Made by a program: the position numbers and the translations under genes. Positions 1-24,699 of a stretch of 45,320 nucleotides of DNA are shown one piece after another (positions within the stretch are counted from its first letter, which is position 1; each line of letters opens with the position of its first letter). The DNA is from Oscillospiraceae bacterium (GTDB lineage Bacteria > Bacillota > Clostridia > Oscillospirales > Oscillospiraceae): positions 1-45,320 of the forward strand of contig JAFSJE010000016.1 of assembly GCA_017439425.1 (NCBI GenBank), written 5' to 3'. The notes beneath the pieces were generated by a model. It was not told where the DNA came from. It saw nothing but the letters and a program-made list of their open reading frames with translations, and did not search any database.

Positions 1-476
1 GTGACAACAGTGACCTTCTCCTCGTCCTCGCCTATCTCATAGACGTCGACGATATTACCTGCGCGGAGAACGCTTGCGATACCGGCTGAGGCTGTGGGAA
101 ATGCGATAGTTACAAGGCATCTGCCGGAGCTTATGCCCTTTGTCTTTGCTTCCTCAAGCTCGCTATACGCTTCTTCCGTCATTATTCTGTCGCTCCAAAG
201 AAACTCTCCTGCGTAGAGCTGCTGGCTTGCGACCTTGCCGACCGCTTCATCGGCGGTAAGCACTACTTTCTTAGATAGGCTGTTGCCGTTAGTCTCTGCG
301 GTTGTGAGCATAGCTCGCGTTATAACTGTGCCGGTGGGTATATCCTGCGCGACTCGCACAACGCTTACTGTCTCAGCCTGCGAGCGATACACCCACGGCA
401 AAACACCGAAGGCAATCACCGCCGCCAGCAAGATGCACACAGCGCCGAGAAACGCTTTGCTTTTGAGTAGTTTCAA
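1..476 (-). CDS. SAF-domain / CpaB-like protein (partial, runs off the left edge)
   Basis: The reading frame is open from a TTG start at 476 to the window edge, about 158 residues, so the C-terminus is missing. The N-terminus has one membrane segment (about residues 9-27). It is followed by a SAF-like region containing AQDIPTGTVIT and, later, AVGKVASQQLYAGEFLW, which is how Flp-pilus assembly protein CpaB/RcpC begins. The start is supported by a purine-rich GAAGGGAAG about 6 bases upstream, and the gene begins 17 bases after parB ends, so it is probably co-transcribed with parA and parB. CpaB proteins act in Tad-type pilus secretion. Here, beside partition genes, a role in a mobile element's surface or secretion apparatus is an inference. 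Confidence 0.72.
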   Translation of the reverse strand, partial: MKLLKSKAFLGAVCILLAAVIAFGVLPWVYRSQAETVSVVRVAQDIPTGTVITRAMLTTAETNGNSLSKKVVLTADEAVGKVASQQLYAGEFLWSDRIMTEEAYSELEEAKTKGISSGRCLVTIAFPTASAGIASVLRAGNIVDVYEIGEDEEKVTVV

Positions 477-492
477 TTATTCTTCCCTTCTT

Positions 493-1431: not shown

Positions 1432-2209
1432 CGGAAAGCACCTCCTTTACAAGGTTTTCATAGGCTGCCGCAACCTTTCCGCGACCGTCATGCTCGAATA
1501 TGCTCTTTCCTTCGAGGCTCGTCTCAGCCGCTCTCACAGAGAAGGGTATCTCCGTATCAAAAACGCGGAGCATATTACCGGTCTGACGAAGCGCTGAGAT
1601 AATGGACTTCGCGTTATTTGTTCTTGAGTCCACCATCGTAAGAAGTACACCGTCAATGCGAAGATTCGGGTTTATCTGCCGCCGGACTTTTGCTATTGAA
1701 CCCATAAGAAGCGATAAGCCCTTTGTCGATAGATAGCTCGCCTGTGTTGGGATTATAACCCCATCTGCGGCTGCAAGGGCGTTGATGGTCATCAGGCCCA
1801 GCGACGGCATACAGTCTATGAGTATATGATCGTACTTAGCTTTAAGCGGCTCAAGCGCTTCTTTCAGTACAAACTCACGGCTCATTATGTTCGTAAGACC
1901 GACCTCAAAGCCGGACAGTTCGATATTTGCCGGTAGAAGATCGACGCCTTCTTTGTGATGAATGATGCCTAACCCCTCGGGAGGCGGCTTCTCCTCTATA
2001 ACACTCTGCAAGAGCTCAGTCAGCGTCGCATCCAGTTCATCCGGCGTTTTGACACCGAGGCTGACCGTTAGGCTCGCCTGGGGATCAGCGTCCACAAGCA
2101 GAACTCTTTTCCCTGCTCTGGCAAGTCCCACGCCAAGGCTGACTGTGGTAGTGGTTTTCCCGACTCCACCTTTTTGGTTTGCTATTGCGATTATTCTGCA
2201 ATCAGTCAA
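1388..2209 (-). CDS. ParA/Soj-family partition ATPase
   Basis: A 273-residue ParA ATPase. The deviant Walker A motif NQKGGVGKTTTT (about residues 11-22), DADPQASLT (about 41-49) and the Walker B-like ILIDCMPSLG are all present. The start is a TTG at 2209, preceded by GAGGAGG with 8 bases of spacing; no ATG fits as well. ParA partners the overlapping parB gene. The full-length, motif-complete sequence suggests an active partition system. It lies next to a 50-residue gene and behind a hairpin that could attenuate transcription entering parA. Confidence 0.93.
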   Translation of the reverse strand: MTDCRIIAIANQKGGVGKTTTTVSLGVGLARAGKRVLLVDADPQASLTVSLGVKTPDELDATLTELLQSVIEEKPPPEGLGIIHHKEGVDLLPANIELSGFEVGLTNIMSREFVLKEALEPLKAKYDHILIDCMPSLGLMTINALAAADGVIIPTQASYLSTKGLSLLMGSIAKVRRQINPNLRIDGVLLTMVDSRTNNAKSIISALRQTGNMLRVFDTEIPFSVRAAETSLEGKSIFEHDGRGKVAAAYENLVKEVLSDGERVRPRPEERLR

Positions 2210-2244
2210 ATTGTTTTCCTCCTCTCAAAGTAATGTAGATATGC

Positions 2245-2280
2245 AAAAAGGCACTCTCAGATTTCTCTAAGAGTGCCTTT
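2245..2280 (-). terminator. Hairpin terminator between the 50-residue gene and parA
   Basis: An 11-base perfect inverted repeat (AAAGGCACTCT, with AGAGTGCCTTT as partner) around a 12-base loop. On the minus strand it is followed by TTTTTG. It lies after the small gene and just before the parA ribosome binding site, so it could end or attenuate the upstream transcript. Confidence 0.7.
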
Positions 2281-2296
2281 AAACACCGTTATTAAG

Positions 2297-2449
2297 TTAT
2301 CCTGCGAGCTTCACAAGCATTTCATCAACAGCATCGGTATATTTTCCCTCTTCGATCAGCTTATTCCGAAGCATAAAAAGGCTTTCGATTATAGTTCGGA
2401 TTTCCTTTGAAGTAACTTCCAGGTAAAACTTCTTTTTGTTCCAAAACAT
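2297..2449 (-). CDS. Small conserved-looking protein, 50 residues
   Basis: A 50-codon frame starting MFWNKKKFYLEVTSKE and ending VDEMLVKLAG. The ATG follows a near-perfect GAGGAGG site with 7-base spacing, and an intrinsic terminator follows the stop. The composition (basic N-terminus, then an amphipathic helix with IIESLFMLRNKLIEEGKYTDA) looks like a genuine short protein. Similar short proteins are, to my recollection, frequent in Clostridia mobile elements, but I know of no assigned function. It overlaps the end of a longer frame in another phase (2361-2630). Confidence 0.7.
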   Translation of the reverse strand: MFWNKKKFYLEVTSKEIRTIIESLFMLRNKLIEEGKYTDAVDEMLVKLAG

Positions 2450-2630
2450 TATATCGCCTCCTCGAAGAGATTATCTCACCAATTAGTGTTAATCTCAAAT
2501 GTGTGAAGCTCTTATCTAAGAGCCCGAAAGATTCTTCTCGGGCTTTTAGATAAATATGATATGCTATTTGTCCTCTCACGTCCCGCATATCTAGGGACTC
2601 ATAAGGTGCTCGGTTGCGATCCGATAACAT
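2361..2630 (-). CDS. Possible 89-residue protein overlapping the 50-residue gene
   Basis: A frame starting MLSDRNRAPYESLDMRD, with a textbook GGAGGTGA site 7 bases before its ATG. The first 60 or so residues look protein-like. The C-terminal 30 residues overlap the better-supported small gene in a different phase. A strong hairpin (2512-2553) lies inside it. It could be a real short gene, a leader peptide, or a gene whose original stop has been lost. No family recognised. Confidence 0.35.
   Translation of the reverse strand: MLSDRNRAPYESLDMRDVRGQIAYHIYLKAREESFGLLDKSFTHLRLTLIGEIISSRRRYNVLEQKEVLPGSYFKGNPNYNRKPFYASE
2512..2553. other. Long hairpin, possible regulatory RNA structure
   Basis: A 42-base near-perfect inverted repeat. 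The arm TTATCTAAGAGCCCGA is matched by the complement of TCGGGCTTTTAGATAA, with one G.T pair or mismatch. It has no long T-run on either strand, so it is not a clear terminator. It falls within the doubtful 89-residue frame and about 60 bases upstream of the 50-residue gene, where it could act as a leader structure. Confidence 0.5.
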
Positions 2631-2990
2631 AGGATTCTCACCTCCGCCGGGAACACCGCCGGCCGCCATCGCTTCGATGACGGAAGTATCATTATTCCCC
2701 CACATCTGTCATTGCCACCACCGGTTGCTGTCCGGCTTTCGATGTCTAAGCTTTATCGCTCGCTTCCTCATGGAAGGTCTTGGCGCGCCTACATCAACAG
2801 CTTGAGGTTTCCCTCGATGCGGGTTTTTCCCATATGAGTGATATTGGTTTTTCAAGGTTCGACCAAGAGTCTCTTTTGAAGCCCTCCACTTTCGAGGCAA
2901 CGAGAAGGGCCAAAAACGGACATTTTTTTAAAACTTTTTTGTTTTTGTAGGATTGCACAATTTTCACCTCCCAGTTTTTGTGCGATGTTA
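2631..2990. other. Gene-poor stretch between the mobile element and ppdK
   Basis: About 360 bases with no convincing gene. Two minus-strand frames (up to 103 residues) lack good ribosome binding sites and familiar composition. The right part (about 2930-3000) is T-rich on the plus strand. This is where the junction between the left mobile element and the core chromosome should lie, but I could not identify an attachment site. Confidence 0.4.
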
Positions 2991-3003
2991 CAGTGTTTTT
3001 AAA

Positions 3004-3043
3004 GTAAAAAAGCCCCTGTGTGACTTTTACATCACACAGGGGC
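3004..3043 (-). terminator. Intrinsic terminator of ppdK
   Basis: A perfect 12-base stem (GCCCCTGTGTGA with TCACACAGGGGC) around an 8-base loop, followed on the minus strand by a T-run. It lies about 70 bases past the ppdK stop. Confidence 0.92.
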
Positions 3044-3110
3044 ATAATTAATTGAATTGTCATCTTCGCTTTTTGCCTGAGATGGCAATCAGCAAAGTGC
3101 AGCAATCAAA

Positions 3111-5753
3111 TTATTGACGCGGATCGCGGATAGCGGCCTGAGCAGCAGCGAGACGCGCGATGGGTACGCGGAACGGGCTGCAGGAAACATAGTCGAGGCC
3201 GATCTTGTGGCAGAACTCGACAGAGGCGGGGTCGCCGCCGTGCTCGCCGCAGATACCGACGTGGAGCTTCGGATTTACGGGTCTGCCGAGCTGGATCGCC
3301 ATCTTCATGAGCTTGCCTACGCCGATCTGGTCGAGCTTGGCAAACGGATCGTTCTCGAGGATCTTTGCGTCATAGTAAGCGCCGAGGAACTTACCGGAGT
3401 CGTCACGGCTGAAGCCGTAGGTCATCTGGGTAAGGTCGTTGGTGCCGAAGCAGAAGAAGTCTGCGTTGGCTGCGATTTCGTCAGCGGTGAGAGCGGCGCG
3501 CGGGATCTCGATCATGGTGCCGACCTCGTACTTGAGGTCGATGCCGGCTGCCTTGATCTCCTCGTCAGCGGTCTCAACAACGATCTTCTTTACAAACTGG
3601 AGCTCCTTGACCTCGCCGACAAGCGGGATCATGATCTCGGGCTTAACAGTCCAGTCAGAGTGCTTCTTCTGAACGTTGATAGCGGCGCGGATAACGGCAC
3701 GGGTCTGCATCCTTGCAATCTCCGGGAAGGTGACGGCAAGACGGCAGCCGCGGTGACCCATCATCGGGTTGAACTCGTGGAGGCCCTGGATGATGGCCTT
3801 GATAGCCTCAACGCTCTTGCCCTGAGTCTTGGCAAGAAGCTCAATTTCCTCCTCGGTGGTCGGAACGAACTCGTGGAGAGGAGGATCGAGGAAGCGGATG
3901 CAGACGGGGTTGCCCTCAAGAGCCTCATAGAGCTTCTCGAAGTCGCCCTGCTGATAGGGAAGGATCTTTGCAAGAGCCGCCTCACGCTCCTCAACAGTGT
4001 CGGAGCAGATCATCTCACGGAAGGCTGCAATTCTGTCAGCCTCGAAGAACATATGCTCGGTACGGCAGAGGCCGATGCCCTCAGCGCCAAGCTCGCGAGC
4101 CTTCTTTGCGTCGCGCGGAGTGTCGGCGTTGGTGCGAACCTTGAGCACGCGGTACTTGTCGGCAAGAGCCATGATTCTGCCGAACTCGCCGGCGATCTCA
4201 GCGTCAACGGTCTTGATAAGTCCGTCATAGATGTTGCCGGTGGAGCCGTCGATGGAGATCTCGTCGCCCTCGTGGAAGGTCTTGCCTGCGAGGGTGAACT
4301 GCTTGTTCTCCTCGTCCATGATGATATCGCCGCAGCCGGATACGCAGCAGGTACCCATTCCGCGGGCAACAACGGCGGCGTGGCTGGTCATACCGCCGCG
4401 GACGGTAAGGATACCCTGGCTTACCTTCATGCCGGTGATGTCCTCGGGGCTGGTCTCGAGACGTACGAGAACGACCTTCTCGCCTCTCGCTGCCCAGGCC
4501 TCTGCGTCCTCAGCGGAGAAGACGATCTTACCTGCAGCAGCGCCGGGGGAAGCGCCGAGGCCCTTGCCCATAGGAACGGCTGCCTTGAGCGCGGCGGCGT
4601 CGAACTGCGGGTGGAGAAGGGTGTCGAGGTTTCTCGGGTCGATCATAAGAACTGCCTTCTTCTCGTCGATCATGCCCTCGTCAATGAGGTCGCAGGCGAT
4701 CTTGAGAGCAGCCTTTGCGGTACGCTTGCCGGAGCGGCACTGGAGCATATAGAGCTTGCCGTTTTCAACGGTGAACTCCATATCCTGCATATCACGGTAA
4801 TGCTCCTCGAGGGTTGCGCAGACCTCGATGAACTGCTTATAAGCCTCGGGGAACTTGTTTGCCATCTCGGTGATGGGCATCGGGGTGCGAACGCCTGCGA
4901 CGACGTCCTCGCCCTGAGCATTGGTAAGGAACTCGCCCATGAGCTTCTTCTCGCCGGTGGCGGGATCACGGGTGAAGGCAACGCCGGTGCCGGAATTCTC
5001 GTTGAGGTTTCCGAATACCATCGGCATTACGTTGACAGCGGTACCCCAGGAATAGGGGATATCGTTATCACGGCGATATACGTTAGCGCGGGGGTTATCC
5101 CAGGAGCGGAATACTGCGCGGATAGCTTCGTAAAGCTGAACCTTCGGGTCGGAGGGGAACTCCTCGCCGATCTTGTCCTTATACTCAGCCTTGAACTGCT
5201 TTGCAAGCTCCTTGAGGTCTGCGGCGGTGAGCTCGACGTCGAACTTGACGCCCTTCTCCTCCTTCATCTTGTCGATGAGCTGCTCAAAGTACTTCTTGCC
5301 GACCTCCATAACGACGTCGGAGAACATCTGGATGAAGCGGCGATATGAGTCATAGACAAAGCGCTCGAACTTGGGGTCGGGGTTGCCGGCGATCATAGCG
5401 GCAACGACGTCGTCGTTAAGACCGAGGTTGAGGATGGTGTCCATCATGCCGGGCATAGAAGCGCGGGCGCCGGAACGGACGGAAACGAGAAGAGGATTCT
5501 TGAGGTCGCCGAACTTCTTTCCGTTCAGCTCCTCCATCTTGGCGACGTACTCCATGATCTGTGCCATGATTTCATCGTTGATCTTGCGGCCGTCATCATA
5601 ATACTGGGTGCAGGCCTCGGTGGTGATGGTAAAGCCCTGGGGTACGGGAAGTCCGATGTTGGTCATCTCTGCGAGGTTTGCTCCCTTTCCGCCGAGAAGC
5701 TCACGCATGGTTGCGTTGCCCTCGGAGAAGAGGTAAACGTATTTCTTGCTCAT
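3111..5753 (-). CDS. ppdK: Pyruvate, phosphate dikinase
   Basis: An 880-residue cytoplasmic enzyme interconverting pyruvate + ATP + phosphate and phosphoenolpyruvate + AMP + diphosphate; full length for the family. The N-terminal ATP-grasp domain includes GGKGANLAEM (about 21-30) and SVRSGARASMPGMMDT. The phosphohistidine swivel domain carries GGMTSHAAVVARGMG, with the catalytic His near residue 458 and the usual regulatory Thr before it. The C-terminal PEP/pyruvate barrel has GICGEHGGDP with the catalytic Cys. The ATG has an AAGGAGG site. It is a single-gene unit with its own sigma-A promoter and terminator. In anaerobic Clostridia this enzyme often replaces or complements pyruvate kinase. 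Confidence 0.98.
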   Translation of the reverse strand: MSKKYVYLFSEGNATMRELLGGKGANLAEMTNIGLPVPQGFTITTEACTQYYDDGRKINDEIMAQIMEYVAKMEELNGKKFGDLKNPLLVSVRSGARASMPGMMDTILNLGLNDDVVAAMIAGNPDPKFERFVYDSYRRFIQMFSDVVMEVGKKYFEQLIDKMKEEKGVKFDVELTAADLKELAKQFKAEYKDKIGEEFPSDPKVQLYEAIRAVFRSWDNPRANVYRRDNDIPYSWGTAVNVMPMVFGNLNENSGTGVAFTRDPATGEKKLMGEFLTNAQGEDVVAGVRTPMPITEMANKFPEAYKQFIEVCATLEEHYRDMQDMEFTVENGKLYMLQCRSGKRTAKAALKIACDLIDEGMIDEKKAVLMIDPRNLDTLLHPQFDAAALKAAVPMGKGLGASPGAAAGKIVFSAEDAEAWAARGEKVVLVRLETSPEDITGMKVSQGILTVRGGMTSHAAVVARGMGTCCVSGCGDIIMDEENKQFTLAGKTFHEGDEISIDGSTGNIYDGLIKTVDAEIAGEFGRIMALADKYRVLKVRTNADTPRDAKKARELGAEGIGLCRTEHMFFEADRIAAFREMICSDTVEEREAALAKILPYQQGDFEKLYEALEGNPVCIRFLDPPLHEFVPTTEEEIELLAKTQGKSVEAIKAIIQGLHEFNPMMGHRGCRLAVTFPEIARMQTRAVIRAAINVQKKHSDWTVKPEIMIPLVGEVKELQFVKKIVVETADEEIKAAGIDLKYEVGTMIEIPRAALTADEIAANADFFCFGTNDLTQMTYGFSRDDSGKFLGAYYDAKILENDPFAKLDQIGVGKLMKMAIQLGRPVNPKLHVGICGEHGGDPASVEFCHKIGLDYVSCSPFRVPIARLAAAQAAIRDPRQ

Positions 5754-13013: not shown

Positions 13014-13047
13014 AAAAAGTAATCGGGGAGGTATTTCCCTCCCCGAT
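13014..13047 (-). terminator. Terminator after ccsA
   Basis: An ATCGGGGAGG / CCTCCCCGAT stem with a short loop. On the minus strand it is followed by TACTTTTT. It closes the cytochrome c maturation genes. Confidence 0.8.
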
Positions 13048-13050
13048 AAT

Positions 13051-13866
13051 TTATTTATAGCTGTGCAAGCCAGGTAAAAGCGTATTCACGCCGACGTAGG
13101 TGAACATCACGCAGATGAAGCCGGCAACCGCAAATATCGCCGCGCTTCTGCCCTGCCAGCCGCGGCGGATGCGCAGGTGCAGGTAGATTGCATAGGTTAT
13201 CCACGTCACGAGCGACCACGTCTCCTTGGGGTCCCAGCTCCAGTAGCTGCCCCACGCGCGCTCAGCCCAGATGGCTCCGGTCACGATGGTGAACGTGAGA
13301 AACAGTATTCCGAGCGCACAGGAGCGGTAGCTTATCATATCGAGCTTCTCTCTGTCTGGGATATGGCTGTCAAGAAAGCCCTGCGCGCGCATCTTATCAC
13401 GGAGCAGAAAGATTATCGAAATAACAAACGACACGCCGAAGGCGCCGTAGGCGATTATCGCGGTGGAAACGTGAAAGCCGAGCCAGCCCGATTGCAGCGC
13501 CGGCATAAGCTCCTTTACGTCCTTGCTCTGCATCGCAGCGTAGCCGATGATGAGAAATATCACCGGTGCGGCAAAGGCGCCGAGAATGCGGAACCTGAAG
13601 CGGAAGATGAAAATAAGGCTCACAAGGCACAGACCCCACGCGAAGCTCGTCGCAAACTCGTACTGATTCGTGAGCGGAAGCCTGCCCGCGCCGATTCCGC
13701 GGCACACAAGCGCCGCAGTGTGCAGTACAAAGCCCGCGCACTGTATCGCCACGGCGAGAGTCGAAATCTTATCGTTCTTTACGGCAACGAACAGGAAATA
13801 TGCTATCATCGCGCCGAAATAGCAGATCATGGCGGCGGTGAAGAGGAAGTTTTCAGCTTGCAGCAT
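13051..13866 (-). CDS. ccsA: Cytochrome c biogenesis protein CcsA/ResC (system II)
   Basis: A 271-residue polytopic membrane protein with about eight hydrophobic helices. The haem-handling WWD-type motif is present as WGSYWSWDPKETW (about 205-217). With ResB it exports haem and attaches it to CXXCH motifs of apocytochromes outside the membrane. It overlaps resB by 14 bases. Its obvious local substrate is the pentahaem nitrite reductase encoded upstream. The length is at the short end for the family but complete. Confidence 0.95.
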   Translation of the reverse strand: MLQAENFLFTAAMICYFGAMIAYFLFVAVKNDKISTLAVAIQCAGFVLHTAALVCRGIGAGRLPLTNQYEFATSFAWGLCLVSLIFIFRFRFRILGAFAAPVIFLIIGYAAMQSKDVKELMPALQSGWLGFHVSTAIIAYGAFGVSFVISIIFLLRDKMRAQGFLDSHIPDREKLDMISYRSCALGILFLTFTIVTGAIWAERAWGSYWSWDPKETWSLVTWITYAIYLHLRIRRGWQGRSAAIFAVAGFICVMFTYVGVNTLLPGLHSYK

Positions 13867-15109
13867 CGTTTTTTTCTCCTTGATTGATTGCTCTCAAAAA
13901 TGCGTCGGTAAAGAGAACTCCGCCCTTGCGGCACTCGCCGAAGAGTGTCCAGCTTTCGCCGTTCTTCACAGCCCAGACGCGTTTGGGCTGAAGGTAGAAG
14001 GCGAGGAACAGCCCGAGGGTCACGACAAGTCCGCCGAGAAGCGCGAGCGGCGTAAACGGGTCGCGCTTGACCGCGATGAGCGTGTAGCTCTGCGGCTCTG
14101 TGAAGCGCACCTCATACTCGTCGATGGTCAGCGGCTCATCGCCGTAGAGTATGTTCATGCCCAGTATCTCGCCCATGTAATATACCTGATAGAGATATGC
14201 GGGATTGTTGAGATTGCCCGAGGCCGTGGCGGGTCTGCCGCCGGACGAGGTGTAGTCGGGATAGAACGCGGTGAGGCTCACGATAAGCTCCGGCTTGTCC
14301 GCGATGGGGATATACTCGCCCGCGCAGAGAACCTCGCTTTGAAGCGGCTCGCCGTCCTTTGTGATATTCACTCTCGCCGCCCAGCCGGTGGAGTTCTGAT
14401 AGAACCTCATTCCGAAGAGGTCGGCGGGGTTATTTACACTTATCGTCGCGCTCCGGCATTCGCCGTTTTCCGGATTGCAGACCGTTATATCCGCGACGTA
14501 CTGTTCAACTGTGTCGTCCTCTCTGAGCAGAACCTGAAAATCGTCGATAGTGAGGTTGAGCCCGGTATCGCCCAGCGCGCGCGTCTGTCCTGCAACGCCG
14601 TAGGCGGTAAACTCCTGCTTGAAGCTCTGACCGAGGCCGAAGCCGATTATAAGGAGCAGTATTCCGAGGTGGCACACCCAGGCGCCCCACAGTCCGGCGC
14701 GGTTTTTCGACGATATGAGCCGCCCGTCGTCCAGCTTCCGCGGAGATGGCATTCCGAGGCGCTTCATCGCGCCCTCAGGGTCGTCCGTTTCACCGGAAAC
14801 CGTGCTGAAATCGGGTATCTCAGCGGCGCTTTTCGTGCGCTCGATGAGCTCCGGAAGTCTTATAAGATTGCAGAACGTGAGATTGAAGCAGAGAAAGCCG
14901 TTTATCAGAATGAACCACCAGCTGTGAAACGCGTCGTTGAGGCTGAGCGCAATGATCAGCGCGCCGACCTGTTCACCGTATTCAGAAGCGTAGTATTCGT
15001 AGCTCTTCCCCTGCTGAATGAAGCTGCCAAGACTGCACGCCGCCGCCAGGACAATGAGCAGTATTATCGCAAACTTCATCGAGGAAAGGAATTTCCAGAC
15101 TTTTTTCAT
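13853..15109 (-). CDS. resB: Cytochrome c biogenesis protein ResB/Ccs1 (system II)
   Basis: 418 residues. Membrane helices near 10-28, 55-78 and 140-160 and a last one near 368-388 flank a large extracytoplasmic domain, as in ResB/Ccs1. It starts WKFLSSMKFAIILLIVLAAACSLGS, the usual N-terminal helix. The protein chaperones apocytochromes and, with CcsA, forms the haem ligation complex. The gene follows nrfA by about 55 bases, with a terminator between. No promoter is visible in that gap, so expression may depend on read-through from the rnf-nrfA operon. The start has a GAGGT site 8 bases upstream. Confidence 0.94.
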   Translation of the reverse strand: MKKVWKFLSSMKFAIILLIVLAAACSLGSFIQQGKSYEYYASEYGEQVGALIIALSLNDAFHSWWFILINGFLCFNLTFCNLIRLPELIERTKSAAEIPDFSTVSGETDDPEGAMKRLGMPSPRKLDDGRLISSKNRAGLWGAWVCHLGILLLIIGFGLGQSFKQEFTAYGVAGQTRALGDTGLNLTIDDFQVLLREDDTVEQYVADITVCNPENGECRSATISVNNPADLFGMRFYQNSTGWAARVNITKDGEPLQSEVLCAGEYIPIADKPELIVSLTAFYPDYTSSGGRPATASGNLNNPAYLYQVYYMGEILGMNILYGDEPLTIDEYEVRFTEPQSYTLIAVKRDPFTPLALLGGLVVTLGLFLAFYLQPKRVWAVKNGESWTLFGECRKGGVLFTDAFLRAINQGEKNDAAS

Positions 15110-15122
15110 AGGTTTTTACCTC

Positions 15123-15152
15123 AAAAAAGTACGGCAGTTCTGACTGCCGTAC
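15123..15152 (-). terminator. Intrinsic terminator/attenuator between nrfA and resB
   Basis: A perfect GTACGGCAG / CTGCCGTAC stem with a 6-base loop, followed on the minus strand by TTTTTT. It sits between nrfA and resB, within what would otherwise be one operon. Confidence 0.88.
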
Positions 15153-15163
15153 CTTTTCAGTTT

Positions 15164-16471
15164 TTATTGTGCAAGAAGCTCCATGCCCTCCTTGACGAGC
15201 TCCTCGGCTCTGTCAAGGCAGCTGAACGCGAGGTCTGAGTTGTGAGCGCCCTCGCTGTTCTCAACGTAGCAGAAGTCGAAGTACCACTGCGCCTCGCGGT
15301 GGATGGCGCGGAGAGCGTCGAGCTCCTCCTCTGTCTTTGTTCCGGCGGCGACAGCCTCGGCAAGCGCGGTCTTGAAATCGGAAAGCTCGTTTCCGACCTC
15401 GGTCTCGCGGTTCTTTACGCGATCCTGAAGTCTGCGCACCATGTTGACCACATCTGTACCCTCGTGGCAGGTGGCGCAGTTCGAGAGAAGCGTCTCGTTT
15501 TCAAGCGGAGAGACAAGCTCGTGGCTGTGGTAGACCGTTCCGTCGTCCTCCATGACGAGCGCCATGTGGCAGTCGGCGCAGTTGAGAAGCTTACCGTGCT
15601 TGCCGGAGAGGAAGGTCTCCATCTCGGGGTGCTGAGCCTTGAGAAGTCTTGTTCCGGTGGATGGCTGAGTCCAGTCGGCAAAGCCCACTGTGCCGTCCGG
15701 CAGAACCATATTGGTATAGTAGTTGTATATCGCCTCCGGCGTCATCTCGGAAACGGAGTGATATGGCATCATCGTCTCGGAGTGGGATGGTGTGAAGTAA
15801 TACTCAATGTGGCACTGTCCGCAGGAGAGCGTTGCGGGGTCGATCTTCGCGGCGTTCGAGCCGAGCGCCTCATTCACATAGCTGTGGGTGATGGTGATCT
15901 GACCGGCATTGCCCGCGTCGTTGCCGTGGCAGGTGTAGCAGGAGACGTTCTCCTCCATCATCGCCTCAACCTCTTCAAAGGGCATCGAATAGACCTCTAC
16001 GCCGAGATCGTTCACGAGCTTTGCGAAGTTCGGGGTCTTGCAGGTGAGGCAGTTTGCCTTCGCGTGGGGTCGGAGAGTCTTATGCACGTCCTCAAGGGTG
16101 TACTCATGGCCTCTTGCCGAGCCGTAATCCTTCGCAAAGCCGTAGCCCTCGTAAATATTGACGAGGTACGGATCCTCCTCAAGATAGCTTGTTACATAGC
16201 TGTTTTTGGAGTTTGCACCCATGGTGGCAACGATGTAGGGATACTCCTTCTCCCAGTCGGAGGCGTTTACGGTGCCGTCCTTGCTCGTCGCTACCGGCGC
16301 GGCGACGTTTTTATATGTAACGTCCTCGCGCGTGAGCGGGCCGAGAGCGCCTCTGTTCAGGATATGGTACATCATATCCCCGCCGCCGAGCACGCCGCCC
16401 ACGAAAACTACGGCGACTATAACGGCGACCGCTGCGCATACGCCCTTTATTACTTTGGTTTTATTTTCCAT
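15164..16471 (-). CDS. nrfA: Pentahaem cytochrome c nitrite reductase (ammonia-forming)
   Basis: 435 residues. Reduces nitrite to ammonium with six electrons on the outer face of the membrane. An N-terminal membrane helix (about 8-30) is retained as an anchor or uncleaved signal. Five haem motifs occur in canonical order: CLTCK (141, the lysine-ligated catalytic haem), CYTCH (178), CGQCH (217), CADCH (298) and CATCH (332). Active-site landmarks are GSARGHEY (Arg about 120), HIEYYF (Tyr about 224) and KAQHPE (His 281). An in-frame extension of 17 codons exists, but the ATG at 16471 shares a base with the rnfB stop and has AGAGGT upstream. No nrfH lies in the window, so the electron donor is not the usual one by context. 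Confidence 0.96.
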   Translation of the reverse strand: MENKTKVIKGVCAAVAVIVAVVFVGGVLGGGDMMYHILNRGALGPLTREDVTYKNVAAPVATSKDGTVNASDWEKEYPYIVATMGANSKNSYVTSYLEEDPYLVNIYEGYGFAKDYGSARGHEYTLEDVHKTLRPHAKANCLTCKTPNFAKLVNDLGVEVYSMPFEEVEAMMEENVSCYTCHGNDAGNAGQITITHSYVNEALGSNAAKIDPATLSCGQCHIEYYFTPSHSETMMPYHSVSEMTPEAIYNYYTNMVLPDGTVGFADWTQPSTGTRLLKAQHPEMETFLSGKHGKLLNCADCHMALVMEDDGTVYHSHELVSPLENETLLSNCATCHEGTDVVNMVRRLQDRVKNRETEVGNELSDFKTALAEAVAAGTKTEEELDALRAIHREAQWYFDFCYVENSEGAHNSDLAFSCLDRAEELVKEGMELLAQ

Positions 16472-17280
16472 TACTGTACCTCTGTTTTGGCGCCCGCTCC
16501 TGTGATGACCTTGGCGGGGCACTTCTCAGCACATTTTCCGCACTGTACGCAGTTGTCGTAAACGACGTGGGCGAGGTTGTTCTCGACCTTTATTGCGTCG
16601 TGCTCGCACTGCTTTACGCACATCATACACCCGATGCAGCCCGCTGTACAGACTTTTTTTACCATCGGGCCCTTATCCCTGTTGGAGCACTGCACCCTGA
16701 CCTTCTTGGAGATCGGCACAAGCTCGATAAGTCCCTTCGGGCATGCCTTGGCGCATAGTCCGCAGCCGATGCAAAGCCTTCTGTCAACTATCGCCACGCC
16801 GTCCACAACGTGAATGGCGTTGTGCGGGCACGCTCTTACGCAGGAGCCGAGTCCGAGGCAGCCGTAATCGCAGTCTGCGACGTTGATTCCGGCGAGAACG
16901 GCGCTGCGGCAGTCCTGAACGCCGATGTAGTTGCCCTGATTTTTCGTTACCTCGCAATTACCCTTGCATTTTACAAAGGCTACGCGCTTTTCGCCCGCCT
17001 CGGCGGTGGTGCCCATTATCTCGCCGACCTTATCGGCAACGGGCTGACCGCCGACGGGGCAGCCGTTTACGGGCGCTTCGCCCTTTGCTATGGCGGCAGC
17101 CATAGCGTCGCAGCCGGCGTAGCCGCAGGCGCCGCAGTTGTTGCCCGGAAGGCACTCGCGGACGGCGGCCTCGCGCTCGTCGACCTCAACGTAGAACTTT
17201 TTGCCGGTGAACACAAGACCCGCGCCGACGATGACGCCGATGACCGTAATAACGAGGGTGGTTATAATAATTACCTGCAT
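16471..17280 (-). CDS. rnfB: Rnf complex subunit RnfB (ferredoxin-like electron entry)
   Basis: 269 residues. An N-terminal membrane helix (1-28) is followed by the Cys-rich domain with CLPGNNCGACGYAGC (about 43-57), then several ferredoxin-type cluster motifs including CIGCGLCAKACP, CIGCMMCVKQC and CVQCGKCAEKCP. RnfB accepts electrons from reduced ferredoxin on the cytoplasmic side. It is the last rnf gene here, 13 bases after rnfA, with a GAGGAGGTG site. nrfA follows with a one-base overlap, which ties nitrite reductase synthesis to the Rnf complex. Confidence 0.96.
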   Translation of the reverse strand: MQVIIITTLVITVIGVIVGAGLVFTGKKFYVEVDEREAAVRECLPGNNCGACGYAGCDAMAAAIAKGEAPVNGCPVGGQPVADKVGEIMGTTAEAGEKRVAFVKCKGNCEVTKNQGNYIGVQDCRSAVLAGINVADCDYGCLGLGSCVRACPHNAIHVVDGVAIVDRRLCIGCGLCAKACPKGLIELVPISKKVRVQCSNRDKGPMVKKVCTAGCIGCMMCVKQCEHDAIKVENNLAHVVYDNCVQCGKCAEKCPAKVITGAGAKTEVQ

Positions 17281-17293
17281 TTACCGCACCTCC

Positions 17294-17872
17294 TCAGAAA
17301 TTGAGCTGAGCAAAGCCCATAAAGGCGATACTCATAAGAGCGGCGGATATGAGAACGATAGGCGCGCCTCTGAGCGGAGCGGGGATATCCTCCTCGCGGA
17401 TGCGGCTGCGGATTGATGCGAGCAGCACTATCGCGATGGTGTAGCCGAGGGCGGTTCCGAAGCCGGAGAGAACGCACTCGATGAAGTTATAGCCGTTCTG
17501 CACGTTCGTGAGCGCTACGCCGAGAACTGCGCAGTTCGTGGTGATGAGCGGCAGATATATGCCGAGGGATTTGTAGATAGCGGGGCTCGTCTTCTTGAGG
17601 AACATCTCGACTATCTGAACGAGGGCGGCGATGACGAGGATGAAAACGATGGTCTTCATATAGTCAAGGCCGTTCGGCGCGAGAACGTAGTCATAGAGAA
17701 GGCTTGCAACGCCGGAGGCGATGGTGATAACGAAAATAACCGCGCCGCCGAGCGAGGCGGAGGCCTTCATCTGCTTTGAAACTCCGAGGAAGGAGCAGAT
17801 TCCGAGGAACTGGTTGAGAACCACGTTATTTATGAGCGCGCCGCTGATGATGATAAGAATAAGGTTTGTCAT
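17294..17872 (-). CDS. rnfA: Rnf complex subunit RnfA
   Basis: A 192-residue membrane protein with six hydrophobic helices, typical RnfA length. N-terminal region NNVVLNQFLGICSFLGVS and the mid-protein LIVNC-type cysteine motif (here LITTNCAVLG) are family marks. RnfA and RnfE together hold a [2Fe-2S] cluster within the membrane that links cytoplasmic and outer carriers. It overlaps rnfE by 4 bases (ATGA). Confidence 0.95.
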   Translation of the reverse strand: MTNLILIIISGALINNVVLNQFLGICSFLGVSKQMKASASLGGAVIFVITIASGVASLLYDYVLAPNGLDYMKTIVFILVIAALVQIVEMFLKKTSPAIYKSLGIYLPLITTNCAVLGVALTNVQNGYNFIECVLSGFGTALGYTIAIVLLASIRSRIREEDIPAPLRGAPIVLISAALMSIAFMGFAQLNF

Positions 17873-18555
17873 TTATTCTCCACCTCCCCGGGATTTTCGC
17901 ACTTCATGGCGCAGTTCGCGCAGCAGCCGTCGCAGCTCTCGACAAGCTCCTTCTGCCTTGTCTTGATGCCGATGGCGTTCATAATGCAGATTATGATCGC
18001 AAAGACGAGGAACGCTCCGGGAGGCTGAACGAAGATCGCGATGGGATCGACGGATTCCGGCAAAACTCTCATGCCGAAGAAGCTTCCGGCGCCGAGGAAC
18101 TCGCGCAGGATACCGGCTACTCCGAGGGCGCAGGTGAAGCCGACGCCCATTCCGATGCCGTCCATGATGGACAGCAGGGGGCCGTTTTTAGAGGCATACG
18201 CCTCGGCTCTGCCGAGGATTATGCAGTTAACGACGATGAGCGGAATGTAGATTCCGAGGGATTCGTAGAGCGCGGGCAGATACGCCTCCATAAGAAGCTC
18301 AGTCACCGTGACGAGCGAGGCGACAACGACGATGTACGCCGGAAGTCTGACCTCTGCAGGTATGAGCTTGCGCAACAGTGAGATAACGAAGTTAGAAAGG
18401 GTCAGAACGACGAGGGTGGAGAGTCCCATTCCGATGCCGTTCATCGCGCTTGTGGTAACGGCGAGCGCGGGGCACATTCCGAGCATAAGAATAAGCGTCG
18501 GGTTTTCCTTTACGATGCCGTTGTAGATTCGCTCAAGGTATTTGTTCTTCAGCAT
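17869..18555 (-). CDS. rnfE: Rnf complex subunit RnfE with Cys-rich tail
   Basis: A 228-residue polytopic membrane protein homologous to RnfA. NPTLILMLGMCPALAVTTSA at the N-terminus and IPLIVVNCIILGRAEA in the middle carry the conserved cysteines for the shared membrane iron-sulfur cluster. After the last helix there is a soluble tail of about 23 residues with five cysteines (CDGCCANCAMKC). Such tails are not part of the minimal RnfE core and could bind metal or a cluster. It starts one base after the rnfDG stop and overlaps rnfA by 4 bases. Confidence 0.95.
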   Translation of the reverse strand: MLKNKYLERIYNGIVKENPTLILMLGMCPALAVTTSAMNGIGMGLSTLVVLTLSNFVISLLRKLIPAEVRLPAYIVVVASLVTVTELLMEAYLPALYESLGIYIPLIVVNCIILGRAEAYASKNGPLLSIMDGIGMGVGFTCALGVAGILREFLGAGSFFGMRVLPESVDPIAIFVQPPGAFLVFAIIICIMNAIGIKTRQKELVESCDGCCANCAMKCENPGEVENK

Positions 18556-18556
18556 A

Positions 18557-20134
18557 TCACTCGCCTCCCTTCATGTAATTTGCCCAGAAGTCAAGTCCGG
18601 CGTTCACCGCGTTTACGACCGCCTTCGAGGTCGTTGTCGCGCCGGAAACGGAGTCTATCTCCTCCGGCTTCGTGCCGCCGCCGTCCTTCAGAACCTTGAA
18701 GGCGGTCACAAGGCGGCCGTTAAACTGATCTCTGAACTCCGGCTCGTCGCAGCGCATACCCATGCCCGGGGTCTCGTGTAGCTCTGTGAAGGAAATGCCG
18801 GTCACAGTTCCGTCCGGTGCAATACCGAGAGAGATAGTGACGTTGCCGTCATAGCCCTCGGCGCTCGTTGCGCTTACAACGTAGCCAACGATATTGCCGG
18901 CGCTGTCCTTACCCACGACGGCTTTATTGATATAAACTCTGCCGAAGGATGTTCCGTAAACTGCACCGTTGAGCTCAGAGAGCTTGTTATGCACCGCAAC
19001 GGTGGTTTCAAAGCTTTCTGCCGCCGGACATACGGCGCGGTAGGATTCAGCAGCCGCCGCCTCCTTCTGCGCGTCGATGGTGTCCTTCGTGAGGCTGAAA
19101 ACTCCGCTGAGCGCGATACCGGCGACAAGGGTGATTACAGTGAGCGCGATAACGGGCTTCGGGATCTTCTTCCAGAAGGGCAGCTTCGGCTCGCCGTTCT
19201 GGAGCGCGATGGCGCTCCTGCGGTAAGCGAAGGGCTTGGGGATGACGTAGGTATCAATAAGCGGAACAAAGAGGTTTCCGATGATGATCGAATAGCTGAA
19301 GGAGTCCACCGCTGTGCCGAAGATTCGGAAGAGCGCGCCGAGAACTCCGATTATAAGTCCGTAGGTGAGCTGGCCGAGCTTGGAGACGGGGCTTGTTGCG
19401 TAGTCGGTAGCCATGAAGAACGCACCCATTACGACGCCGCCGCCGCAGAGGTGGGCGAGGAGATAATGCGGGTCGAAGCCCTGACCGCCGAAGAGTCCGA
19501 GGGTTACGGTGAAGCCGCCGAGAACGGCAAAGCAGATCTCGCCGTGGATGATATCCATCGCCCAGAGGACAAGTCCGCCGATGAGCAGCGCGACGATGGA
19601 GGAGCCGATGACTCCGCCGCCGGTACCGAGAAACATCTTCGTGACGTTTACGGCGCGGCCGCTCATAAGCTCGGCGATAGGCGTGGCGCTCGAAACGCCG
19701 TCAAGTCCGAACATCGTCATCGCCTTGCCGAATGAGATGAGCGCAAAGCAGCGTCCGGCGAGCGCGGGGTTCAGAAAGTTCTTTCCGAGGCCGCCGAAGC
19801 ACATTTTGACTACGAGAATCGCAAAAATGGATCCGACAGCCGGTATGTAAAGCGGAACTGCCGGACTGAGCGACAGTGCGAGCAGAAGTCCCGTGACCGC
19901 CGCCGAGCCGTTTTTCCATGAATCCGGCCCGTGAGTCAGCTTATTGAAGATAAACTCCGTTCCGACCGCGCACGCGACGGCTACGATGATGACTAAAAGC
20001 GCGTTAATTCCGTTTACGATAACGCCGACTATGGTCGCGGGCAGAAGCGCGAGAATGACCGCCGTCATTATGTAGCCGGTGGTCCATCTGTCGCGGACGT
20101 GAGGGCCGGCGGAAATATTCAGTACACCGTTCAT
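18557..20134 (-). CDS. rnfDG: RnfD-RnfG fusion protein of the Rnf complex
   Basis: A 525-residue single frame containing two normally separate subunits. Residues 1 to about 310 are RnfD, a polytopic membrane protein with the flavinylation motif SSATPI (Thr about 151). A short linker follows. Residues from about 325 are RnfG: one membrane helix (about 325-345) and an outer FMN-binding domain ending in SGATTTS (497-503), where the final Thr of the motif should carry covalent FMN. No Met lies in the linker, so this is not two overlapping genes. It overlaps rnfC by 4 bases. Both flavin sites appear intact. Rnf drives ion translocation coupled to ferredoxin:NAD electron transfer. Confidence 0.95.
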   Translation of the reverse strand: MNGVLNISAGPHVRDRWTTGYIMTAVILALLPATIVGVIVNGINALLVIIVAVACAVGTEFIFNKLTHGPDSWKNGSAAVTGLLLALSLSPAVPLYIPAVGSIFAILVVKMCFGGLGKNFLNPALAGRCFALISFGKAMTMFGLDGVSSATPIAELMSGRAVNVTKMFLGTGGGVIGSSIVALLIGGLVLWAMDIIHGEICFAVLGGFTVTLGLFGGQGFDPHYLLAHLCGGGVVMGAFFMATDYATSPVSKLGQLTYGLIIGVLGALFRIFGTAVDSFSYSIIIGNLFVPLIDTYVIPKPFAYRRSAIALQNGEPKLPFWKKIPKPVIALTVITLVAGIALSGVFSLTKDTIDAQKEAAAAESYRAVCPAAESFETTVAVHNKLSELNGAVYGTSFGRVYINKAVVGKDSAGNIVGYVVSATSAEGYDGNVTISLGIAPDGTVTGISFTELHETPGMGMRCDEPEFRDQFNGRLVTAFKVLKDGGGTKPEEIDSVSGATTTSKAVVNAVNAGLDFWANYMKGGE

Positions 20135-21480
20135 TTGGCACCTCCCGCCTTTGCGCGCTTAAGCGCAAGGATCTCAGCCTTTGTCTCCTTGAATATCTGC
20201 GTGAGCGGGCGCTTTGCCGGGCAGACGTAGGTGCAGGAGCCGCAGGCTATGCAGTCAAGGCCGTAAAGCTTAGTTTCAAATCTCTCCCAGTCACCGACGT
20301 GGATCGCCTCAGCCATAAGCTGAGGCAGAAGCCCCTGCGGGCAGACCGTAGTGCAGCGGCCGCATCTGAGACAGCCGGTCATATGCTTGTGACTGTCCTC
20401 AACGGTGTCGCGTCCCAGAAGCGTAATTGCATTCGTTGTCTTTACGACCGGAACCTCGAGATACGCCATTGAAACGCCCATCATCGGGCCGCCGGAGAGC
20501 GCCTTTTTCACTGTAACGCCCTCTTTGATGCCGCCGCAAGCCTCGATGAGCTCCGTCATCAGCGTTCCGTCGTGAACGATGAAGTTCTCGGGCTCGCTCA
20601 CAGCGTCGCCGGTAACGGTGAGAACGTGGGTAAACAGCGGCTCGCCGTAGAGAACTGCTCTTCCGATGGCGTAGAGCGTTCCGACGTTGTCGACGATGCA
20701 GCCGACGTCGGCAGGGAGCTTTGAGACCGGGAAGTCGACCCCGGCGATAACGCTGATCAGGCTGCGCTCGCCGCCCTGCGGGTACTTCGTGTGAAGCGGC
20801 AGAACGCGGATGCCCTTTTTGCCCTCAGCAGCCTTCTGCATCGCGGCAATCGCCTCGGGCTTGTTGTCCTCGATGGCGATAACGCCCTCGGCGTTCTTAA
20901 ACAGTCTGAGCGTGACCTCAAGTCCCTCAACGATACCGTCCGCCATCGTGCGCATCATCTGATCGTTGCAGGTTATGTATGGCTCGCACTCGGCGCCGTT
21001 TGCGATGACGTATTTGATGGCGTCCGGGTTTTTCGGCATGAGCTTGACGTAGGTCGGGAAGCCTGCGCCGCCGAGGCCGACGACGCCAGCCTCCTTGACA
21101 GCGGCTACTATCTCCTCATTCGTCATCTTCCCGGCGTCGCGCCTCTGGCTCCAGTCGGCTGCGGGCGTAAAGAGCCCGTCATTTTCGATGACTACGCACT
21201 CCTGCATCGCGCCGGAGATGGTGCGGCGCTTTTCGATCGCCTTCACCTTGCCGGAGCAGGAGGAAATGACGGCAGCGGAAATGAAGCCGTCCGGTTCTCC
21301 GATTTTCTGACCCATAAGAACCTCATCGCCCTTTTTTACGATGGGCTTTGCGGGCTTGCCTATGTGCTGGGCGAGCGGAAATACCATCTCTCCCGAGGGC
21401 TTATATTCACGCAAAGCCTTATTCCGGCTCAGCTCCTTGTTGCCCTTGGGGTGTACTCCGCCGCGGAAAGTCATGTTCAC
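20131..21480 (-). CDS. rnfC: Rnf complex subunit RnfC (NADH-interacting)
   Basis: A 449-residue cytoplasmic-face subunit. An N-terminal barrel-sandwich domain is followed by the NADH/FMN-binding Rossmann-like domain (GLGGAGFPTYVKL about 135-147; NGAECEPYITCNDQMM) and two C-terminal [4Fe-4S] motifs, CLRCGRCTTVCP and CIACGSCTYVCP. It exchanges electrons with NAD(H). The start is taken as GTG at 21480, with GAGGAG 9 bases upstream; an ATG two codons later is possible. First gene of the rnf-nrfA operon, behind a clear sigma-A promoter. Confidence 0.96.
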   Translation of the reverse strand: MNMTFRGGVHPKGNKELSRNKALREYKPSGEMVFPLAQHIGKPAKPIVKKGDEVLMGQKIGEPDGFISAAVISSCSGKVKAIEKRRTISGAMQECVVIENDGLFTPAADWSQRRDAGKMTNEEIVAAVKEAGVVGLGGAGFPTYVKLMPKNPDAIKYVIANGAECEPYITCNDQMMRTMADGIVEGLEVTLRLFKNAEGVIAIEDNKPEAIAAMQKAAEGKKGIRVLPLHTKYPQGGERSLISVIAGVDFPVSKLPADVGCIVDNVGTLYAIGRAVLYGEPLFTHVLTVTGDAVSEPENFIVHDGTLMTELIEACGGIKEGVTVKKALSGGPMMGVSMAYLEVPVVKTTNAITLLGRDTVEDSHKHMTGCLRCGRCTTVCPQGLLPQLMAEAIHVGDWERFETKLYGLDCIACGSCTYVCPAKRPLTQIFKETKAEILALKRAKAGGAK

Positions 21481-21561: not shown

Positions 21562-21590
21562 ATATTAACAGACATTCCTACAATTGTAAA
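21562..21590 (-). promoter_or_regulatory. Sigma-A promoter for the rnf-nrfA operon
   Basis: On the minus strand TTTACA and TAATAT are 17 bases apart. The predicted leader is about 75 bases. The small palindrome ACAATTGT overlaps the -35 end. A second, weaker candidate (TTGTAC, 16 bases, TATGAT) lies nearer the gene. Confidence 0.7.
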
Positions 21591-23135: not shown

Positions 23136-23378
23136 ATGAAAGCAACCGGAATAATCAGAAAAGTCGACGAGCTCGGGCGCATCGTGCTGCCCATCGAGCT
23201 GAGGCGCAGTCTTGATATAGACGTCAAGGATCCCATCGAGATCTACACGGACGGCGACAAAATCGTTCTCAAGAAGTACACGCAGACGTGCTCATTTTGC
23301 GGAAAGTCAAAGGACCTGGTGCCCTTCCGCGACAGACTTGTGTGCAGAAAGTGCATTGAGGAGCTTTCTTCGCTCTGA
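23136..23378 (+). CDS. AbrB/SpoVT-type transcriptional regulator with C-terminal zinc ribbon
   Basis: 80 residues. The N-terminal 45 form a swapped-hairpin AbrB domain (GIIRKVDELGRIVLPIELRR). The C-terminus has two CxxC pairs (CSFCGKS and CRKC), a likely zinc ribbon seen in several Clostridia AbrB homologues. AbrB proteins act as transition-state regulators that bind curved AT-rich DNA as tetramers. The ATG has GGGAGGAAG 8 bases upstream. The serpin gene follows after 52 bases with no terminator, so they are probably co-transcribed. Confidence 0.93.
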   Translation: MKATGIIRKVDELGRIVLPIELRRSLDIDVKDPIEIYTDGDKIVLKKYTQTCSFCGKSKDLVPFRDRLVCRKCIEELSSL

Positions 23379-23430
23379 TTTGGAACAAAATGCCCCTTGC
23401 TTTGGTCATATAGAAAAAGGAGGCGTTACT

Positions 23431-24699
23431 ATGAAAAGTATTATTGCTCTCATTCTCTCGCTCGCGATCGTCTTATCCCTCGCCGCCTGCACCGCGCAGG
23501 AGGAGCCGGTCGATGTCGCGGACGAGCCGGTAGAAATCGTTGAGCCCGCTCCCGAACTGGAAAAGCCCGATACTCCCGCGGAGAAAACGGGTTACGCGAG
23601 CCTTACCGAAAACCGCCCCACAGCAGAAATAGACTGGGTGCAGGAGGGCGTGGACTACTCTTCTGTGGCAAGGCTCGGAGTCGGGCTTCTCAAAAAGGCT
23701 GAGGGCGACAACGCGGTAATCAGTCCGCTTTCCGCCTACATAGCGCTCGCCATGTGCGCCGAGGGTGCGGACAGCGCCACTAAAGACGAGTTTGAGAGTC
23801 TTATAGGCTCAGATACACGCCGCGTCGCGAATATTCTCTTAGACCGCATGAAAACCGACGAAAACGAGTTCTCGAGCGCAAATTCCGCGTGGGTCGGCTG
23901 GAACTCTCAGCTCAGAGAGCAGTATCTCAACGACCTTGTGATGTACTACAACGCCGAGGCGTATCTGACGGATTTCGATATCCGCATAATGAACGAGTGG
24001 GTAAACGAAAAGACGAAAGGTCTTATCCCGAGCGTTTTTTCCGATGAGCTCGACCCGATGACGCGTCTTGTGCTCATAAACATCCTCTATCTTAAGGCAA
24101 AGTGGGCTTCTCCGTTTGACGCGCAGGCAACTTACACCGACCTTTTCCACGCCGAGGGCGGCGACAGGGAAGCGGAGTTTATGCACAAAACCGCGCATTT
24201 TGAATATCTCGAGGGCGACGGCTACGAGGGCGTTGTCCTCCCCTACCGCGGCTGGGGAATGAAATTCATCGCGCTCAAGCCCACAAGCGGCACTGTCAAC
24301 GACCTTGTAAGCTCGCTTGAGGGCGTGAATCCCGAGGGCGAGAGCAGAAAAATATTCCTCTCCATGCCGAAGTTTGACGTTGATTATCGCTTTGATATGG
24401 TCGAGCCGTTAAAGTCGCTCGGGCTGTCGAGCGCGTTCACCGACGAGGCGGATTTCTCGCTTATGAGTGAGGAGCCGCTGTGCGTCAGCAACATCTTCCA
24501 GAAGGTCAAGGTAACGGTCGATGAGGACGGCACCGAGGCCGCCGCGGCGACAGTCGTCGAAATGGTTGCAACGAGCGCCGCGCCGGGATTCGTCGAGGAG
24601 CCGTATGAGCTTCGTCTTGACGAGCCGTTTGTGTATATGATAGTCGAGTCCGAGTCGAACGCACCGCTCTTTATGGGCGTTATGAACGACCCGTCGTAA
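23431..24699 (+). CDS. Lipoprotein serpin (serine protease inhibitor)
   Basis: 422 residues. A signal peptide with lipobox LSLAAC (Cys20) should anchor it outside the cell. A Pro/Glu-rich linker (about 25-60) precedes the serpin fold: ADSAT, NSAWVG, LVLINILYLKAKWASPF and SMPKFDVDY are typical blocks. The reactive-centre hinge is canonical (DEDGTEAAAAT). Counting from it, the P1-P1' bond falls at about Thr-Ser, which would suit an elastase- or subtilisin-like target; this is inference. An upstream in-frame extension exists, but the ATG at 23431 has AAGGAGG and gives the signal peptide. Serpins from gut Clostridia (siropins of Eubacterium siraeum) inhibit host neutrophil proteases. Confidence 0.95.
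   Translation: MKSIIALILSLAIVLSLAACTAQEEPVDVADEPVEIVEPAPELEKPDTPAEKTGYASLTENRPTAEIDWVQEGVDYSSVARLGVGLLKKAEGDNAVISPLSAYIALAMCAEGADSATKDEFESLIGSDTRRVANILLDRMKTDENEFSSANSAWVGWNSQLREQYLNDLVMYYNAEAYLTDFDIRIMNEWVNEKTKGLIPSVFSDELDPMTRLVLINILYLKAKWASPFDAQATYTDLFHAEGGDREAEFMHKTAHFEYLEGDGYEGVVLPYRGWGMKFIALKPTSGTVNDLVSSLEGVNPEGESRKIFLSMPKFDVDYRFDMVEPLKSLGLSSAFTDEADFSLMSEEPLCVSNIFQKVKVTVDEDGTEAAAATVVEMVATSAAPGFVEEPYELRLDEPFVYMIVESESNAPLFMGVMNDPS

Follow-up and report, generated by a model that had tools for sequence, protein, structure and literature searches.

A conserved rnf-nrfA operon in uncultured gut bacteria, mostly from ruminants, suggests a quinone-free route of nitrite ammonification

We analyzed a 45,320-nucleotide contig of an Oscillospiraceae bacterium (JAFSJE010000016.1, assembly GCA_017439425.1; this whole stretch is hereafter called the window), in which the genes of an Rnf complex run directly into a gene for the pentaheme cytochrome c nitrite reductase NrfA. 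Examination of open reading frames (ORFs) together with protein family searches revealed an eight-gene block on the minus strand (21480-13051) in the order rnfC-rnfDG-rnfE-rnfA-rnfB-nrfA-resB-ccsA, with all six Rnf functions (RnfA, B, C, D, E and G) present and D and G fused. The block opens with rnfC (20131-21480, GTG start; TIGR01945, 490 bits), which has Complex1_51K, RnfC_N and SLBB domains, motifs for nicotinamide adenine dinucleotide (NADH)/flavin mononucleotide (FMN) binding, and two 4Fe-4S motifs. The fused rnfDG (18557-20134) is a single 525-aa ORF that joins the RnfD membrane subunit to the outer-face FMN domain of RnfG, with TIGR01946 and TIGR01947 both matched above their cut-offs in addition to PF03116 and PF04205. 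It is followed by rnfE (17869-18555; TIGR01948, 249.9 bits) and rnfA (17294-17872; TIGR01943, 254.1 bits), both above cut-off, and by rnfB (16471-17280; TIGR01944 above cut-off, PF04060 and Fer4), coding for the Fe-S subunit expected on the ferredoxin side. The nitrite reductase gene nrfA (15164-16471, ATG start) matches PF02335 (Cytochrom_C552) with 249.4 bits against a cut-off of 24.1. Two genes of System II cytochrome c maturation close the block, namely resB (13853-15109; PF05140, with no NCBIfam match at E≤0.001) and the heme lyase gene ccsA/ccsB (13051-13866; TIGR03144 above cut-off, PF01578).

The genes are tightly packed, with 4-base overlaps between rnfC and rnfDG and between rnfE and rnfA, a 1-base gap between rnfDG and rnfE, a 13-base gap between rnfA and rnfB, and a single base shared by the rnfB stop and the nrfA start (TAATG). 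These ORF coordinates agree with the original prediction, made from the sequence of the window, which had described rnfC to nrfA as joined by overlaps or gaps of 1-13 bases, with nrfA sharing a base with the rnfB stop and resB-ccsA following. A 54-base gap separates nrfA from resB, and resB overlaps ccsA by 14 bases. A perfect 10-bp palindrome lies inside the nrfA/resB gap (15129-15152), possibly a site of RNA processing or attenuation. Consensus scans picked out a promoter-like TTTACA-17-TAATAT site with a TG element upstream of rnfC (21562-21590, minus strand; the scanned region holds 9 of these, its shuffles 4.0 on average) and a terminator-like hairpin with a 10-bp stem directly after ccsA (13022-13047, minus strand; 17 such sites vs a shuffle mean of 9.4). 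By consensus alone, these two features are consistent with a single transcription unit.

To place the block among its relatives we used the best 80 of 270 confirmed stretches from a scan of species-level genomes with the window NrfA. Their NrfA proteins are 63 to 100% identical to that of the window, and their gene order was read by tblastn with the eight window proteins. The loci do not represent as many independent genomes, because one (L002) is near-identical to the window and two (L025 and L064) come from one metagenome-assembled genome (MAG), RGIG8324; the two rnf-nrfA contigs of that MAG carry differing NrfA proteins, 70 and 67% identical to the window's. In all 79 loci with readable upstream DNA rnfB was found upstream of nrfA (within 100 nt in 72 of them), the 80th locus (L041) starting inside nrfA and therefore falling outside the count. 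The adjacency on which the original prediction had leaned is thus retained in relatives, and chance adjacency can be rejected. The full rnfC-DG-E-A-B order preceded nrfA in 61 of the 62 loci of sufficient length, the exception (L077) starting inside rnfDG, and resB was found downstream of nrfA in 77/80. Among the three others, L042 has a doubled nrfA and then resB, and L045 and L067 have rnf-nrfA with no resB or ccsA found after nrfA; another heme lyase may serve there. By their record titles, 72 of the loci belong to Bacillota and 8 to Spirochaetota, with labels that include Clostridia, Lachnospiraceae and Erysipelotrichaceae, and a ruminant-project tag appears in 69/80 titles.

Since the relatives are known from MAGs or assemblies of uncultured organisms, one might suspect a binning or assembly artefact that put nrfA beside rnf. 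The spread of the same junction over 79 of 79 contigs, at NrfA identities from 63 to 100%, already refutes this explanation, to which we give practically no credence. The conserved respiratory operon is real.

The cofactor motifs of the proteins are intact. The window NrfA has one CXXCK and four CXXCH heme motifs, and the CXXCK motif is kept in 81/81 NrfA rows (the 80 related loci and the window). Alignment to the E. coli NrfA of the PDB (1gu6; E 1e-42) placed R120, Y224 and H281, the active-site Arg, Tyr and His, and E223, K278 and Q280, the calcium ligands, opposite their counterparts, and each of the six is conserved in all 81 rows. Two narrower NCBIfam models, NF008339 and TIGR03152, match the window NrfA below their cut-offs. 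Nitrite is the likely actual substrate. The protein also has an N-terminal hydrophobic segment and is presumably membrane-anchored; a lipobox-like N-terminus, by a simple pattern, appeared in 1/81 rnf-linked NrfA proteins, as compared to 18/30 mainly NrfH-linked and 2/15 lone ones. The idea of the juxtamembrane segment as a specially conserved docking motif found no support, its mean conservation being 0.70 vs 0.77 overall. In a Solobacterium-labelled MAG (L042, 10001-12436, plus strand) two NrfA units form one 811-aa ORF with 10 heme motifs, which may reflect a genuine fusion or an effect of assembly.

On the Rnf side, the acceptor threonine of RnfD (T247) is kept in 72/72 rows and the [S/T]GA[S/T] FMN site of RnfG in 67/72, and the window RnfDG has both FMN attachment motifs. 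Also conserved are the cysteines of RnfE (C28 in 72/72, C111 in 76/76) and RnfA (C26 in 76/76, C114 in 78/78) and the Fe-S cysteines of RnfC (68/68), whose GxGGxGFP positions are kept in 62 or 63 of up to 63 rows. Of 71 loci examined, 68 have the fused DG as one ORF of more than 470 aa; in the remaining three a contig end cuts it short.

Within the genus of the window genome, this Rnf is a minority type. A search with RnfDG over 60 genomes gave matches in 57. Only one RnfD was matched in the window genome. Among the 34 genomes of the genus, an unfused RnfD at 39-44% identity occurs in 26 and a fused one at ≥68% in six, that of the window included; two gave no match. Two genomes (G835 and G829) carry a second RnfD form, a fused or partial fused one 51-55% identical, alongside the unfused one. 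The five other close fused-DG loci of the genus were fetched, and all five have nrfA after rnfB, although in one of them (L201) nrfA was matched in two tblastn pieces and is possibly broken or misassembled. No nrfA was seen at the seven fetched unfused Rnf loci (L205 to L210 and L212), an absence assessed at those loci and genome-wide in one genome (G749). Within the genus, nrfA therefore travels with its own Rnf type.

We then searched 51 carrier genomes (that of the window and those of 50 of the 80 loci) for NrfH (PF03264), UbiA-type prenyltransferases and molybdopterin oxidoreductases (PF00384). NrfH was found in 0/51, and none appeared even at E≤1 in the window genome, which is 95.5% complete, so that the lack of NrfH noticed in the window extends to the genome and its relatives. 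Menaquinone requires a UbiA-type prenyltransferase, and matches to this type occurred in 3/51 carriers: that of the window genome is of the decaprenyl-phosphate phosphoribosyltransferase class (213 bits vs a cut-off of 207), one (G008) is uncharacterized and one (G043) lies under the family cut-off. A menaquinone pathway elsewhere in the genome, which the original prediction had named as a point that would count against it, thus finds no sign by this proxy, the men and mqn genes not having been searched singly. The pentaheme donor NrfB of enterics, which the prediction had also noted as absent from the window, has no apparent counterpart either: at 100 listed of the 109 CXXCH sites in the window genome, all 100 read for ORFs, no multiheme protein besides NrfA was seen, and the motif is no commoner there than its reversed pattern (109 vs 136). 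A protein that looks exported and has two CXXCH motifs (L113) was rejected as a multiheme donor, as it has many CXXC repeats with glycines and by eye resembles a DnaJ-type zinc finger. Since the operon is conserved and the customary connection through quinones did not turn up, the Rnf pump probably feeds NrfA.

An even sample of the phylum served as control, restricted to 69 genomes with a best NrfA match at E <1e-80 (of the 95 other genomes with a match, the 26 with weaker ones were excluded). PF03264 was found in 55 of the 69, with a listed place ≤1 kb from nrfA in 48 of the 55. RnfD/NqrB, which the PF03116 profile does not tell apart, occurred in 14/14 genomes without NrfH vs 15/55 with it (Fisher p = 5e-7, relatedness ignored), and by family in 6/6 vs 9/32 (p = 0.002, relatedness likewise ignored). 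In these 29 of 69 genomes the nearest RnfD-nrfA pair on one contig was 32 kb apart, though short contigs can conceal linkage, as for G271, whose nrfA lies on a 4.6-kb contig. The lone NrfA proteins of the NrfH-less genomes (L219-L233; 14 genomes of 6 families, each without NrfH and with RnfD/NqrB elsewhere in the genome) are encoded by genes that stand alone or adjoin resB-ccsA.

A tree of NrfA, built by a quick method from 22 of the 80 related loci, the window and the comparison rows, and drawn from its midpoint, placed all rnf-linked NrfA proteins in one clade (100). This clade grouped with eight lone rows and four class rows (98), apart from most NrfH-linked rows, and four Spirochaetota rows were nested among Bacillota rows. 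A long-branch warning was given for L221, which fell with the rnf-linked rows. Of the 30 rows marked nrfH, which are top hits of the NrfA search over the phylum sample, 29 are from genomes with PF03264; the remaining one (L158, of G271) is not, and is identical to L226 of the lone group. The five class rows carry no NrfH assignment. The tree suggests a distinct lineage of NrfA, as well as gene transfer across phyla.

Some operons also hold flavoproteins. At the second, fused-DG Rnf locus of G835 (L203) no nrfA was present within the 14 kb fetched, and directly upstream of rnfC (82-3612, plus strand) lie two tatA/B-like genes, tatC, and a gene for a flavoprotein with a twin-arginine translocation (Tat) signal, which has a twin-arginine start and FMN_bind and FAD_binding_2 (flavin adenine dinucleotide, FAD) domains. 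Between rnfB and nrfA, L059 has Tat genes 52 to 59% identical to those of L203 along with a flavoprotein of the same domains; in L071 and L077 the flavoprotein at this place contains two FMN_bind stretches. Such outer-face flavoprotein insertions thus occur in 3/80 nrfA loci, in addition to L203; weaker flavoprotein matches lie past ccsA in L051, and the inserts of L013, L018 and L027 hold no such flavoprotein. The flavoproteins in these operons suggest that this Rnf delivers electrons to the outside of the membrane, where different reductases use them.

Taken as a whole, we consider it likely, from the sequence data, that these organisms perform a quinone-free nitrite ammonification, in which Rnf passes electrons of ferredoxin (or NADH) from its outer-face FMN to the membrane-anchored NrfA. 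Electrons would enter Rnf from reduced ferredoxin at RnfB, or from NADH via RnfC, and would cross the membrane through RnfA and RnfE with ion pumping, to reach the covalent FMN of the RnfG domain, here fused to RnfD. From there they would pass to the five NrfA hemes, attached by ResB-CcsA (that of the CXXCK motif included), for the six-electron reduction of nitrite to ammonium. Gene content, conservation of the operon, the intact cofactor motifs, the lack of any NrfH match and the scarcity of UbiA enzymes are direct observations; the step from FMN to heme, the membrane anchor, nitrite as substrate, the role of ferredoxin as principal donor and the pumping of ions are inferred. Through RnfC, the complex may also equilibrate with NAD while it supplies NrfA.

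Several observations weigh against such a route. The intact NADH motifs of RnfC imply that the complex can also run as an ordinary ferredoxin:NAD+ Rnf, so that the linkage to nrfA could be regulatory. In distance correlations with NrfA, RnfG was not singled out (partial r 0.26 for the RnfG part and 0.27 for rnfC), and the lone NrfA proteins of family f29 and of G271 fell on the NrfH side of the tree. Fusion of D and G is not specific, as two distant fused loci (L215 and L216) have no reductase adjoining, which weakens the case for the fusion as an indicator that electrons flow outward. No cultured carrier is found among the 80 loci, all titled as MAGs or uncultured, and the 50 partner genomes are MAGs of unstated completeness. 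Finally, the search that found no quinone route (NrfH, UbiA) left out NapH-like proteins, b-type cytochromes and extracellular flavin systems.

These points leave room for a rival explanation, in which Rnf and NrfA share a co-regulated cassette only, Rnf being a plain ferredoxin:NAD+ pump and NrfA drawing on some other electron source at the outer face (soluble flavins, reduced small molecules, or a protein of the membrane that is NapH-like or of b type), with linkage aiding joint travel and expression. Besides the intact NADH and Fe-S motifs of RnfC and the fact that such donors lay outside the searches made, it draws on the patchy distribution of NrfA, found in 5/391 genomes of the class (window included), and on the single rnf-linked clade with Spirochaetota rows nested in Bacillota, by which the cassette seems to move as a block. 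However, the gene order is kept in 79/79 loci, no quinone route was found and no second multiheme cytochrome was seen in the window genome, and NrfH-less NrfA is associated with Rnf even where the two are not adjacent. We therefore regard a mere cassette as rather unlikely.

The nitrite itself is probably supplied by others. PF00384 is absent from 46/51 carriers, including the window genome, where no nitrate reductase of this family was thus seen, and the step from nitrate to nitrite is thus probably performed by other organisms. Since few of these cells are likely to produce their own nitrite from nitrate, and since NrfA enzymes also reduce nitric oxide and hydroxylamine, NrfA could alternatively be mainly a stress enzyme that detoxifies nitrite, nitric oxide and hydroxylamine with electrons from Rnf, and not part of an energy-yielding respiration. 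This seems to us improbable, more so than the cassette, as the window genome has only this Rnf while most of its genus has another type, which suggests a bioenergetic role; in any case, both roles are compatible with Rnf as the donor.

The NrfHA cytochrome c nitrite reductase is known from Wolinella and Desulfovibrio. The system described here resembles it in the catalytic NrfA, with its CXXCK heme, Arg/Tyr/His site and calcium ligands, and differs from it in that no NrfH and no menaquinone-type UbiA were found, the rnf genes lie directly upstream of nrfA, and NrfA has a hydrophobic N-terminus that is rarely lipobox-like. Sporomusa ovata has an NrfH1A1 (PMC12780646). A further likeness is to Methanosarcina, where the multiheme cytochrome c MmcA is encoded with rnf and is proposed to be reduced by Rnf (PMC6703419), much as a multiheme cytochrome shares the rnf operon here; MmcA, however, is archaeal, serves anthraquinone-2,6-disulfonate (AQDS) reduction and extracellular electron transfer, is not known as a nitrite reductase, and works where methanophenazine is present. 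Desulfovibrio gigas also has a multiheme cytochrome c within an rnf operon, but with a proposed link between the periplasmic cytochrome c pool and cytoplasmic NAD(P)H/ferredoxin and not as a terminal reductase (PMC4287179). The "bifurcated" RNF shares a second path from RNF to extracytosolic acceptors, but there the extra flavins or hemes sit on RnfG itself, and NrfA has no occurrence in the text of that paper (PMC8238504). The same source describes FMN-binding fumarate-reductase-like extracytosolic enzymes with the make-up of the flavoproteins of L059, L071, L077 and L203; these differ from the present case in having a flavin enzyme with an unknown acceptor in place of a heme nitrite reductase.

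Among further papers, one includes both Rnf and NrfA in its electron-transport components for rumen genera, without placing them in an operon (PMC6479175), one counts nrfA (PMC10811737), and one names NrfA as a marker gene (PMC12578642). Neither nitrite nor NrfA figures in the consulted text of PMC11334425, which belongs with the nearest published work. No description of an rnf-nrfA operon was found in the portions consulted of the open-access full-text literature, whose coverage cannot exclude one, and the operon is apparently undescribed so far. Its parts are known; their coupling would be a new form of Rnf-linked outward electron transfer.

Outside the block, its neighbours in the window, an M18 peptidase gene and a homoserine O-succinyltransferase gene, are apparently unrelated to it. 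The window also encodes a bacterial serpin (23338-24699, plus strand; PF00079, E 7e-77), whose N-terminus looks by eye like a lipoprotein signal.

Beyond the operon itself, we tentatively raise a wider generalization, on which we are somewhat doubtful. There may be a second, quinone-free class of NrfA, anchored, without NrfH, and powered by Rnf whether linked or unlinked, as suggested by the presence of RnfD/NqrB in every NrfH-less genome of the control (14/14). The outer FMN of Rnf might then be a general socket for outer-face reductases, NrfA and Tat-exported FMN/FAD flavoproteins among them, and ferredoxin respiration an anaerobic strategy of general reach, which gene transfer has disseminated in the rumen.

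The operon opens to test the question of whether Rnf, known as a ferredoxin:NAD+ oxidoreductase, can be a source for outer-face terminal reductases. If the proposed route is true, the six-electron ammonification of nitrite would need no quinone pool and would be directly coupled to an ion pump driven by ferredoxin. Fermenting Clostridia and Spirochaetes would then gain a form of respiration, along with an outlet for electrons that they would otherwise release as H2. In ruminants, the carriers would eliminate nitrite and would be rivals of the methanogens for reductant, which would be relevant to nitrite poisoning and to the feeding of nitrate as a measure against methane.

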